A program made the translations under genes and the position numbers. Positions 742 through 8,882 of a DNA stretch of 64,000 bases are shown here, piece after piece (the stretch's first letter is position 1; each line of letters opens with the position of its first letter). Source of the DNA: Filobasidium wieringae (taxonomy: Eukaryota; Basidiomycota; Tremellomycetes; Filobasidiales; Filobasidiaceae); contig BCIV01000010.1 in assembly GCA_001600055.1 (NCBI GenBank), positions 558,001-622,000 on the forward strand, in the 5' to 3' direction. Below the pieces are notes generated by a model that did not search any database, was not told the DNA's origin, and saw nothing but the letters and a program-made list of their open reading frames with translations.

Positions 742-3328
<2,587 letters not shown>

Positions 3329-3428: not shown

Positions 3429-6400
3429 CTAGGTGAAGATCCAATTTGCCGATTTCGCAGCCCAAGAGTCCAGACTTGTCACCTCTAGCTCTTTGAACGC
3501 CTTGCGTGATGGAATGTGACTCGGCTCGTTCGCACCCGGAGCGTTGCCATCGATGGCCGCGATGTCGGATATGGACATGCCTAATCCAGGTCCGCCCACA
3601 GAGGTCACGTACGGCTGAAAGCCCGCAGACAGAAGAGAATCGGTCAGCTCGCGGAGTTGCGATTCAGCCATATCTGTTTAAACAATTCCCAAACAACGGT
3701 TATGAGACTGCGTAGCAATGAAGTAGATATAGCTCACCATCAGGCAACAGCGTGACAGCACATCCGCCGCCTCCAGCTCCTGTGAGCTTCGTAGACAGAC
3801 AATAGGGCGAGGCCGCTGTCTTGGCACGTATGATTTCCAGAGCAGGATGTGAGACCCCTAGATGAGCTAGATAATTATGGTTCTCGTCGATCAATCTCTG
3901 CAATCGCGACGATGAATATCGGTGGGCCATCGTTGCAGCAAAACGCAGACTCACTGATAGGTCATCGATCAATTGTGTCCTCGTTACATCTCGGTTGGTC
4001 AAAAGATGCGTCGCTTGATCCGAGATTGCTTGTATCGCAAGCATGACTCGCTGCCCATCGCCGGGATCATTGTGCAATTTGGATGCAACTTTGGTTACCA
4101 ACTGCTTAGTCGAACGTGGGATTTTGGTGTCGGTCAGAAGGAAACGGATAGATTTGAACCTGCAGATAAATAGAATTATTTGACAAGGTAGTCTCATCGA
4201 GTTGGAATAGCGCAACTTACCCGTGCAAACCATACATGCCACCAGGACTATCGTTCATCGCCCTTGCAAAGCTCAAGGCTCCTCCTTTAACCGCCACAGC
4301 GTTATCTATCCCGCTCGGATTTCCATGTAAAACCTTCTCGGCCAGGAAGGCCCATCCGTTGATGCGATCAACAGTGTTATCATCGAAGCGTGTGGGCTCA
4401 GATGTATGGTCTCTCGTCAACGCCCCGACCGGAAGATGATTGAAGAGCCGAAGGAACGCTGCAGCGATGCAAGAGGCATATGAAGCTGATGATCCAAGTC
4501 CCGCTCCGATAGGAAGTGCCGAACGAGCACAGTAGCTGGCCCCTTGACTGAATCAAAACACCAATGTCAACGTGTGCTTCAACCGAGAAACCAATAAAAT
4601 TGCTTACAGCTTAGCGTGTTTCCCCATCGTCATGTATAGATATAGAATCGCAAGGGTGGCAGCATGAGCTGTCTCCACCAGCCCTTCATTTTTCAAGAAA
4701 GTTTCTACAGCGGCTAGACTCTTGGGATCCAACTCAGTTGGGGAGTCGCCATCAGTGTTGATCGAGCAGGCGCTGAACTCGCTCCAAGGTAACTGCTCAA
4801 TCTGCCATTCTCGGAAAAATCCACCTTCAATGTCTGGCAGATCAATGGAAAGTTTATGATCCAGCCGCCGTGCCAGATGAGCAAAACATCGCAGATTGAT
4901 GGAAGCCGCTATCGCAGTCTGTGCAGGATGAGGGGCGGATCAAACGAAGCATATGGTTGACACAGAAACGATATAAGGATATGTAAGTGACAATCCATTA
5001 TCGGGAGCTTGATTGACCGGATATCAAGTAGATAAGGGTGATAAGAGATTTAACGTACAACTCCATGCACTACCGCATGTTCTCCAAAAAGAATCACTTT
5101 TCCTGGAGCCGACACAAGTATATCTTGTTCTGTGTCAAGATTGGGTACATCGTTGACGGGTTTGAGAGAGCCCAATTCTGCAGCCGTGTTATCGCTAGAG
5201 GTGTCTGCTGCAAACGCGCGATCATCGTGTCTGCCACTTCTAGTGTATTTGCTCGCTCGTCGAATTACCCATGATTCAGGGTCGGAGATATATGCGTCTC
5301 TAGCCAATCCTGTGGTGGTAGGTGTAGCAGGAGTCGAATCGCCATCGAATCGTTCATAGATGGCTCCAGATTCGATCAGAGAGTGTTCGAGGTCATCGAT
5401 CAGATCGCGAGGGTCTTCAATACCAACACACAGTCGGATAAGGTTTTCTGGGAGACCTCTTTCGGCCCTTTTGTCCGCCGAAATGGACGCATGCCTTGAT
5501 GTTCCGGAGTGAGCGAGATGCATCTCCCGTTAATTCGGCACGACCTACTTACGACATTACGCAAGGCATACTGATAAGACTATTGACACATCCAAAGCTA
5601 ACAGAGATTCCCCAAAGCCTGGTCCCGCCGACGATCCTTTCCGAAGTGGAAACATCGTCTGTCGTGAAGCTTAGCACAGCTCCCGCTCCGTCCGCCTGAC
5701 CGTAATGTATCTCTCGACCAGGGTGGCCCGGAAGACCAGGGAAGTTAACGTGAAAGCCCAATTCATTGAGATATAGGGCGACAAGATGAGCAGTGTTTGC
5801 CTGCCGATCCATCCGGATAGACAAAGTCTTAAGTCCGCGCAGGAGAAGGAAACAGTCTTGTGGAGCAAGACCCGTACCGGTCGAGTTGATCATGAATGCT
5901 ATCCTCTTGCCCACGTCCTCTCTCTCGACAGCAATGATACCGGCCATCACATCATGGTGACCGCTGAGATATTTAGTCCCTGAATCATATACCATATCAG
6001 CCCCCAGGTGAAGAGGCCGTTGAAGGTAGGGGGACATCATCGTGTTGTCAACAACAACCAAAGCGCTCTATCCGGTGACGGCATGAGCATCATATAGGCC
6101 CTCATCATGGCGAGGAGCGTTACTCACAGGGGAAGCGCCATGCACCAGATTAGAGATCATCCTGAGGTCGGCGATTTTGAGCAAGGGATTAGTGGGGCTT
6201 TCCAACAAAACCATTTTTATTTTCTGCCCGCATTGCTCTAGGACCTCTTCTAATCGATCTTTCCTGTCTAGATCCAAATGTTTGACATCGACTCCACCGT
6301 TGGTTTTGACGTAGGTCAAAAGGCGGTCCGTGCCGCCATAGATGTCGGTTCCAGCAAGCACGACATCGCCGGGGGATATGAGGCGCAATATGATGTCAAG

Positions 6401-6858
6401 GGCAGTCATACCCGTGCTGACAGCGAAAGCCCTTGAGCAGTCATACAGTCGAGCTAGTTGCGTCTCTATTACGAAAATAGTATCATTGACAAGAATTGAG
6501 TAACAAGCCGCATTGACCCTGAAGAGGTAATTCTTTACCAAGTGCTGTTCTCGTGGGGTTTCCACTCCTCGTGTAGTCGTACTCTCCATTTAACCCCTTG
6601 AAAGTCGCGGTCTGATATATCGGTACGGAAGACGATCCGTATTGATCTTTGCTCTCGGTAGTCGCACTGCATCGAAAATCACTTAGTCCCGACCACTTAT
6701 ATAGGCACTAGTGAGAGGCAAAGTCACCAAATGGTCCCGAATCTCCAATTCTTCCTACGATCCTCCAAGCTCGAGGAAGACATCTTTGTCGGCATGGAAG
6801 CTACAGAGGTGGCTAATGGCGATACCGCGCCGGAAGGCGGTGGAGTGTAATCTTGCAT
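3429..6858 (-). CDS. Cystathionine beta-lyase / mevalonate kinase fusion protein
   Basis: Ten exons in consistent phase encode 931 residues: 6858-6728, 6666-6539, 6465-6128, 6067-5553, 5494-5059, 4918-4608, 4547-4221, 4159-3955, 3897-3738 and 3673-3429. Residues 1 to about 414 are a complete Cys/Met-metabolism PLP enzyme of the cystathionine beta-lyase type (cystathionine to homocysteine). Evidence is YQTATFKG, SGNPTRTALE, DSGTKYLSGHHD with the PLP lysine at 231, and the usual C-terminal block LCVGIEDPRDLIDDLE. A linker of about 80 residues follows. Residues from about 497 are a complete GHMP mevalonate kinase: PGKVILFGEHAVVHG (from 501), PIGAGLGSSAS (632-642), HGNPSGIDN and LTGAGGGGC (835-843). 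Exon 5 spans both enzymes with no stop and no Met. The eighth intron (3954-3898) is 57 bases, in frame and stop-free, so retention would add 19 residues. The gene diverges from BCS1. Confidence 0.88.
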
Positions 6859-7267
6859 GCTTGTATTAATGATTGCAGTTGTATGCTAGAGCGGGAGAGT
6901 GCCAGTCGCTACAGAAACGTGTTTGATGTTGTAGTTGGTAGTGACGATTGCAGGTTGCAGATTGCAGGTATGCGATGGAGAGCGATGGAAGAGTTGTGAC
7001 TTGCTGACTTGATGACTTGATATGTGCAATCACGCAATGTACCATATCCCTAATCTCGCTTCGGCCGGGTGAGATCTACGCTCGTATAGCGCAGTGGTAC
7101 ACGTCATTTACCCTCCTGGAGAACGTAAATTACCAATTATATTGATTAGATTCGCTCAAGAGCTCAACATAAATGAGCGATGAGCGTTGGAGGATCCGCA
7201 TAGAGAATGAGCTTATTGTCATGTCTCCATCCAAACCTGAACTACCGCTCTCCTAGCATCTCATACA
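6859..7267. promoter_or_regulatory. Shared upstream region of the fusion gene and BCS1, with short direct repeats
   Basis: These 409 bases separate two divergent start codons. GATTGCAG occurs at 6871-6878, 6946-6953 and 6960-6967. TGACTTG occurs three times at 8 or 8-base spacing (6997-7003, 7005-7011, 7013-7019). No TATA box is evident. Repeats of this kind may be transcription factor sites, but no known factor is assigned. Confidence 0.4.
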
Positions 7268-8882
7268 ATGCCATCGCCGGAAGCCCCTGTCGTCCCAGCT
7301 ACAGTGGGACCTGTAGGGTTGGATGCCACATCGCCGCAGTCCACTTCTTTGTTGAGTACTATCATGGCAGATAAGTAGGTGTCTTCCAACCACTATATGT
7401 CCGCAAGGGCCCAGGTGTCGAAATCTTCGTTTCTTTGCTGATCTTCATCACTTTGTCGCAAAGCTAAGCCCTTACTTTTCGGCTGGAGCTGGCTTGATGG
7501 GTATTGGTGTTGTCCTTACCGGGCTACGACGATCCGTCAACCTGGCGGGCAATCTGGCCCAGCGCCGCCTATTAGTCACTTTGGAAATTCCCAGCAAGGA
7601 CAGAGCTTATCCCTGGTTTCTAGAATGGATGGCTATACAAAGCAAGAAGCAGAAACAGGTTTCAGCCCCGTCTTCTTCGACTGGCTCCGGGCTCGTATCC
7701 AGGTGGAAACAGCTACTGAACGGTAGCGTCCCAGTTCAGTCTCATCAGTTGGCTGTGGAAACGACATATAAGAAGCATGACAATGGTTCGACCGAGGCGC
7801 TGTTCACCCTTGTGCCTGGTCCAGGTACACACTACTTTCGCTATCAAGGTGCCTGGATACAACTAAAGCGTGAAAGGGATTCTAAGTTGATGGATCTACA
7901 TAGCGGGATTCCATGGGAGACCGTCACCCTGACCACTCTTTCAAAAGACCGGTATCTTTTCCCCCAGTTGCTCAAAGAAGCTAGAGAGTTGGCAGACAGG
8001 GAGAAGGAAGGGAAGACAGTGGTCTATACCGCTTGGGGCGCTGACTGGAGGCCATTCGGCAAACCCAGACGCAAGAGGGAGGTCGGGAGTGTAGTATTGG
8101 CCGATGGTATGGGAGAAAGACTGGAAACGGATCTGCGCACCTTTCTCGGACGTGGCAAATGGTATGCCGATCGAGGTGAGATTCCATCTTGCATCAGATT
8201 CTGAATCAGCCATGCTGACGGCTTGACTTGACGTCCAGGCATACCCTATCGTCGTGGTTATCTGTTACACGGTCCTCCTGGATCGGGGAAAACGTCATTC
8301 ATACAAGCTCTTGCCGGGAACCTTTCTTACAATATTTGCCTCCTAAATCTGTCTGAAAGAGGCCTAACAGATGACAAGTTGAATCACTTGTTGGGCATTA
8401 CACCTGAAAGAAGTATAGTATTGTTGGAAGACATCGATGCTGCGTTCAATCGGAGAGTACAAACCAGTGAGGACGGGTACAAGTCAGCAGTCACATTCTC
8501 CGGTCTCCTCAACGCGCTGGATGGAGTTGCTTCGGCCGAGGAGAGGATCATCTTCATGACTACAAACCACTTCGATAAACTCGATCCAGCACTTGTGAGA
8601 CCAGGCAGAGTCGATGTCAAGGAACTCCTAGACGATGCCGTGCCCGAACAGGTCGAAAGACTGTTTAACCGCTTCTATGGCAAGGAAAGCGCTCAGGATT
8701 CGAACGAAGTACAGGAACTCGCTCGCGACCTAGGGGACATAGTTGGAGCAGAGTTAAAGGCTGGACGTCGTGTCAGTATGGCCGCCCTGCAAGGTCACTT
8801 CATACGTCATGGACCCGCTGAGTGTTTAAGCAATGTACGGGAATTGTTCTCAGGCAAACGGTCGACCGCAACTGTGTTGTAA
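7268..8882 (+). CDS. BCS1: Mitochondrial AAA ATPase BCS1 (complex III assembly)
   Basis: BCS1 sits in the mitochondrial inner membrane and translocates the folded Rieske iron-sulfur protein into complex III. Three exons (7268-7374, 7469-8175, 8239-8882) give 485 residues, close to other fungal BCS1 proteins. Near residue 36 is [17 protein letters not shown], the single membrane anchor, followed by the BCS1-specific domain ([26 protein letters not shown]). The AAA domain has Walker A GPPGSGKT (283-290), Walker [12 protein letters not shown], then [20 protein letters not shown], the second region of homology. The start is the first ATG before the anchor exon and adds a short Pro/Ser/Thr-rich leader. 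Identity is firm. Confidence 0.95.

Follow-up and report, generated by a model that had tools for sequence, protein, structure and literature searches.

A fusion of cystathionine beta-lyase (CBL) and mevalonate kinase (MVK) has been in print since 2012. In the accessible parts of their paper, Liu et al. (PMC3342255) describe a 'metC-MVK' gene in 12 basidiomycetes except L. bicolor, with a conserved MVK insertion of 16 residues in 7 species; in the basidiomycetes analysed there was no other MVK homologue and no other best CBL hit, and its origin was placed in the ancestor of Basidiomycota. Another 2012 paper, on rice-blast STR3 (PMC3468542), reports in its available text that, Postia placenta excepted, STR3 has a mevalonate kinase at its C-terminus in all of the Basidiomycota examined, states that stand-alone MVK was not found in basidiomycetes and leaves the significance of the fusion to be determined. 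Two later genome papers report the fusion again, in two more mushrooms (PMC4129116 and PMC3720577, in the latter as a mycelial unigene, as far as their accessible text goes). The available portions of these four papers, which belong to the open-licence literature, contain neither an enzymatic test of the fused protein nor a test of the co-regulation or oligomer-dependent kinase suggested as gains in an earlier note.

One spot in a proteome of Xanthophyllomyces (PMC3224108) is assigned to mevalonate kinase, and its four peptides are said to span the kinase domain; this spot was considered as protein evidence for the fusion and set aside, because the accessible text gives no spot mass and does not mention cystathionine. 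The ERG12 gene listed for Xanthophyllomyces (PMC4393869) and the mevalonate kinase of R. toruloides (PMC8058980) are also presented without mention of cystathionine in the portions available, and these two papers neither support nor refute the fusion. The accessible part of PMC9810662 counts mevalonate kinase among the SREBP targets of Ganoderma lingzhi; if the fusion were the only MVK of this species, as PMC3342255 says of relatives, the fusion would be under sterol control. Two reviews were searched by term: the text of the one on the mevalonate pathway (PMC13412983) does not contain 'cystathionine', and that of the one on fungal methionine enzymes (PMC11506715) contains none of 'fusion', 'fused' and 'mevalonate'.

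The window (the whole 64,000-nucleotide stretch of Filobasidium wieringae DNA analysed here) carries a gene with the N-terminal CBL and C-terminal MVK described, in the parts consulted, for metC-MVK of Ganoderma lucidum and other basidiomycetes (PMC3342255) and for STR3-MVK (PMC3468542); its protein is somewhat longer than the metC-MVK average of about 886 residues (Table 1). All introns are of the GT..AG type and total 634 bases, and the spliced frame comprises 931 codons followed by TAG, with a calculated protein mass of 100.2 kDa. The earlier note had read ten in-phase exons and 931 residues, a lyase and a kinase joined in one gene, and an exon 5 open from the lyase end through a linker (84 residues in our model) into the kinase motif; these readings are borne out by the in-phase splicing, the domain matches, the fused relatives and the linker homology presented below. 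Its impression that such a fusion had not been described does not stand in view of the publications cited above. The gene is an unremarkable ortholog of a fusion that is shared widely among basidiomycetes and whose architecture is already known, and with high confidence it is regarded as the Tremellomycete-type yeast ortholog of CBL-MVK, predicted to give a single message and a single chain of about 100 kDa.

Table 1. Features of the CBL-MVK gene (positions within the window; residues of the 931-residue protein).
Feature	Position	Strand	Residues	Remarks
CBL-MVK fusion gene	3429..6858	-	1-931	10 exons, 931 aa; in-phase splicing and Pfam/NCBIfam matches
Exon 1	6728..6858	-
Exon 2	6539..6666	-
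Exon 3	6128..6465	-
Exon 4	5553..6067	-
Exon 5	5059..5494	-		CBL end, linker, MVK motif 1; single open frame without Met
Exon 6	4608..4918	-
Exon 7	4221..4547	-
Exon 8	3955..4159	-
Exon 9	3738..3897	-
Exon 10	3429..3673	-
CBL half (STR3/metC type)	5365..6858	-	1-414	exons 1-4 and start of exon 5
Lys231	5972..5974	-	231	aligns with the SATKF lysine of Arabidopsis CBL 1ibj (residue 278, counted on printed alignment)
In-frame ATG for exon 5	5521..5523	-		within intron 4; possible start only with intron 4 retained
CBL-MVK linker	5113..5364	-	415-498	84 residues
Linker motif WxxxRAxx[FY]xR	5239..5271	-	446-456	WVIRRASKYTR
MVK half (ERG12 type)	3429..5139	-	490-931	includes stop
Lys503	5098..5100	-	503	aligns with rat MVK residue 13
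Glu690	4337..4339	-	690	aligns with rat MVK residue 193
Asp701	4304..4306	-	701	aligns with rat MVK residue 204

The identification of the N-terminal part as a cystathionine beta-lyase was confirmed by TIGR01329 (NCBIfam; residues 45-412, 512.6 bits, cut-off 487.5), by PF01053 (Pfam; residues 46-410, 402 bits, above cut-off) and by Arabidopsis CBL 1ibj as best solved relative (E 7e-111). The lysine of 1ibj that corresponds to Lys231 binds PLP, and the motifs SGTKYLSGHHD (which contains Lys231) and YDYTRSGNPTR, both present, are presumably the PLP-lysine and active-site motifs. This half is the same as that of Arabidopsis 1ibj and ascomycete CBL, catalytic residues included, but those enzymes are stand-alone and the one in the window is fused.

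The C-terminal part matches PF00288 (residues 617-706, 29.4 bits, cut-off 22.3) and PF08544 (residues 793-858, 28.9 bits, cut-off 21) with margins of only 7-8 bits over the cut-offs, and its best solved relatives are human MVK 2r3v (E 9e-65) and rat MVK 1kvk, so that its assignment as mevalonate kinase holds. TIGR00549 (mevalonate kinase) gave 82.3, 64.7 and 22.6 bits when searched exon by exon, the whole-protein cut-off being 163, and was not among the 25 of 55 families listed for the spliced protein. Motif 1, GAGLGSSAS and KLTGAGGGG, the GHMP motifs, are kept, and Lys503, Glu690 and Asp701 align with rat residues whose numbers were counted on printed alignments and whose roles we take to be catalytic. 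The human and rat enzymes share this half and its catalytic residues with the window protein, although they are stand-alone. Judged from the alignments to 1ibj, 2r3v and 1kvk, the catalytic motifs of both enzymes are kept, as had been claimed.

The same architecture was found in other Tremellomycetes and in numerous further basidiomycetes, both mushrooms and yeasts. A kinase-part search with the 931-residue query (region 540-931), with candidates of 0.55-1.75 times the query length and hence directed to kinases inside fused-length proteins, yielded 883 proteins at E <= 0.001 of 7992 candidates scored. Both halves were recognised in all of the best 120 listed: PF01053 was present in 120/120 and a GHMP kinase domain in 119/120, the remaining protein (P0038) having no such domain in the table, yet passing a test of three motifs (SxTK[YF], the motif-1 pattern and KLTGAGGGG) that 115 of the 120 passed. 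The five failures are P0002 and P0003, with the variant VIMFGEHA; P0010, with GEHVVVHG; P0113, which is without the piece after SAPGK, perhaps through an exon lost in the model; and P0091, an incomplete model of 618 residues without the lyase front. Sources named among the listed matches include Naganishia, Cryptococcus, Kwoniella, Kockovaella, Naematelia, Cryptotrichosporon, Calocera and Dacryopinax, Auricularia, Exidia, many Agaricomycetes and Bartheletia, as well as Leucosporidium, Rhodosporidiobolus, Phenoliferia and Meredithblackwellia. The two closest full-length proteins among the matches listed have the same fusion: P0001 (944 aa), with 63% identity in the kinase part and a linker of 92 residues against 84 in the window, and Naganishia friedmannii QFC21_005753 (P0002, 962 aa), with 56% identity in the kinase part and a linker of 108.

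Trees were built for each half with IQ-TREE from 47 rows chosen by us (30 fused proteins, the window and 16 stand-alone ones), with a midpoint root and with Ustilaginomycotina not knowingly included. In the CBL and MVK trees alike, all 31 fused rows fell on one side of one branch with support of 100/100. The window protein pairs with P0001 and then with Naganishia and P0004 in both trees (P0001 and Naganishia before P0004). Such congruence is expected if the halves fused once and descended together thereafter, and would be compatible with a single origin rather than proof of it; most likely the fusion arose once, before the split of Agaricomycotina, Pucciniomycotina and Bartheletia.

The junction lies within exon 5, whose open frame reaches PGKVILFGEHAVVHG after the CBL end and the linker. 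From base composition, a stop-free run of 85 codons has a chance of about 1.6%. The linker of the window is 47% identical to that of P0001 (39/83 aligned residues), which is much stronger evidence that it is translated; against five more distant fused proteins the identity is 22-40% over 41-83 positions. Linker motifs were compared in 131 rows, namely the window, the 120 listed fused-length matches and ten proteins picked from the kinase-half and lyase-half searches. The motif WxxxRAxx[FY]xR was found in the window linker and in 26 others, all organism-named carriers being Tremellomycetes, and [RK]A[VI]EK[LI] in the linkers of 47 others, whose named carriers are mostly Agaricomycetes. Neither motif occurs in 57 of the 131 rows, including two in which the kinase start, and three in which the linker, was not cut by the pattern. 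The class-wise distribution of these motifs argues that the linker is no random filler, and the motif common to Tremellomycete-type proteins is a small addition to the published account.

The best surviving alternative, although an unlikely one, is that there is one fused gene and the two enzymes end as separate polypeptides, by proteolysis of the linker or by a separate start of the kinase. The earlier claim that the kinase lacks its own start stands for exon 5, where nine ATGs occur and none (0/9) is in frame, which speaks against separate products, and overlooks an ATG of intron 4 at 5523, in frame with exon 5, from which a kinase-only message that keeps this intron is possible on paper. 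The variable linker length would also suit separation, as the distance from the GIED-type to the PGK-type motif ranges over 9-115 residues (median 67; 111 of the 120 listed fused proteins measured), the low end of 9 probably being a pattern slip. Conservation of the linker motif in Tremellomycete-type proteins argues against it, and so do P0001 and P0004 (939 aa), in which the two halves share contigs that are just 3001 and 3170 bases long; only about 170 and 350 bases are left there for introns, compared with the 634 of the window gene, so that these contigs are most likely transcripts.

In the preferred reading of a single chain, one spliced message would be translated in this organism into a protein of about 100 kDa, whose N-terminal half is predicted to split cystathionine to homocysteine with PLP in methionine synthesis, and whose C-terminal half is predicted to phosphorylate mevalonate with ATP in isoprenoid and sterol synthesis. 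Each half would act much like its stand-alone relatives, CBL as tetramers and MVK as dimers, tethered to the other by a variable linker. The default explanation for the persistence of the fusion is that both functions are needed and have simply been retained in one gene. It is unlikely that the fusion is a metabolic coupling in which CBL assembly or occupancy controls MVK through a class-specific conserved linker segment (WxxxRAxx[FY]xR in Tremellomycete-type proteins, an AVEKL-like motif in many Agaricomycetes); if coupling did exist, sterol supply would be tied to the supply of methionine and SAM, which sterol methylation needs too. Why certain gene fusions persist can well be asked of a natural example like this, old, widely kept and formed from enzymes of unrelated pathways, and the reason for this one is a testable but modest question. 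If a fungus has no other copy, methionine synthesis and sterol synthesis would each depend on this single gene for one step.

No second MVK or CBL gene, stand-alone or otherwise, was recognised in the genome of the window's organism by profile searches (PF00288, PF01053, TIGR00549 and TIGR01329) carried out exon by exon with the best candidates only, a procedure that could miss a diverged copy. PF00288 marks four loci, the CBL-MVK gene and three others: one frame reads as homoserine kinase and one as diphosphomevalonate decarboxylase, with 202 and 335 bits and both over their cut-offs, and a partial frame reads as galactokinase (158 bits, below the cut-off of 227). TIGR00549 matches three exons of the CBL-MVK gene; its two other matches, which are weaker, lie in the loci read as galactokinase and homoserine kinase. 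The 12 matches of PF01053 fall at the CBL-MVK gene, on C17, at two places on C1 and weakly on C9. TIGR01329 scores highest on the CBL-MVK gene (252.5 and 118.6 bits), its best match elsewhere being C17 (126.6 bits). The single-exon frames on C17 and at C1:1774-1776 kb score higher with gamma-synthase/gamma-lyase type models than with the beta-lyase model, none at a curated cut-off, and the frame at C1:737 kb gives weak matches only. At C9:795773-796153 the PF01053 match (22.7 bits, below cut-off) lies in an open frame of 452 residues. Pieces of ERG8 were found at C16.

O-acetylhomoserine sulfhydrylase (TIGR01326) was not recognised in this genome by the same exon-wise search of best candidates, where the best score was 58.7 bits against a cut-off of 495 and the only matches were the CBL half and the other PF01053 loci; with this model, scores above the cut-off are reached in 9 of 14 control genomes. 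If a dedicated enzyme for direct sulfhydrylation is indeed absent, homocysteine depends on the lyase half. The absence of a recognised O-acetylhomoserine sulfhydrylase is another small addition to the published account.

It is very unlikely that the protein is fused with one half inactive and now serving as a scaffold or regulator. The kinase half evolves faster in the window's lineage, with an end branch of 0.43 in the MVK tree against 0.13 for P0001, and the long branch would fit an inactive kinase. It is also less conserved than the lyase half, with 66.5% identity to P0001 compared with 86.7%. Against this, the aligned catalytic residues are kept in both halves, and with no second MVK or CBL recognised in the genome an inactive half would leave a needed step missing.

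Apparent stand-alone proteins were examined by searching with each half alone. The kinase half (442 aa) gave 6075 matches; among the best 120 listed, the named stand-alone kinases come from Mucoromycota, other early-diverging fungi and Ascomycota. The accessible text of PMC3468542 confines fungal mevalonate kinase proteins to Ascomycota, whereas stand-alone ones are listed here from Umbelopsis, Mucor, Mortierella, Basidiobolus and others. A pattern detected lyase sequence upstream of the kinase in 18 of the 120 listed matches and missed P0127, to which PF01053 had been given; the sole named basidiomycete without an upstream lyase among those listed was Phaffia rhodozyma P0237 (315 aa), whose sequence begins part-way into the kinase and has no motif 1. 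A search with the lyase half (416 aa) gave 7877 matches, and 15 of the best 120 listed continue into MVK motif 1. Eight of these 15 depart from the kinase straight after GEHAVVHGV, the position of intron 5 in the window, among them P0239 (89% identity to the window lyase), P0241 and Vanrija humicola P0242 (506 aa). Three more proteins, P0253, P0255 and P0257, stop at SMPCxMS or very shortly beyond it, which is the position of the exon-4 donor.

True stand-alone basidiomycete copies were sought and rejected: every CBL-only or MVK-only model that was opened breaks off at a conserved intron, is truncated beyond that point or begins within the kinase. On this comparison of models, the 'stand-alone' basidiomycete CBL proteins are read as gene models that probably run into conserved introns, not as separate genes, and the public records P0237 ('mevalonate kinase') and P0242 ('cystathionine beta-lyase') would be partial models of the fusion gene. 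That such database models are cut at conserved introns is a further small addition to the published account. That two adjacent genes were misread as one, as the CBL-only and MVK-only basidiomycete models in databases might suggest, is hardly credible in view of the truncation points of these same models and of the 120 listed fused-length matches with both halves, and separate genes or a gene-model artefact are rejected on the strength of the in-phase exons, the fused relatives and the linker homology.

The region upstream of the gene (6859-7370) contains TGTGGC once (0.18 expected) and TCACCC once (0.22 expected), and none of the other six patterns tried for sulfur or sterol control sites; these single occurrences are not informative as a regulatory clue. 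The divergent neighbour (7356-8882, plus strand) is a BCS1-type mitochondrial AAA chaperone gene with BCS1_N, AAA and BCS1 lid domains. The convergent neighbour (2695-3189, plus strand) has at its end part of an SRP54-like signal-peptide binding domain (26.5 bits, slightly below the cut-off of 27) and a GMPG-rich tail.
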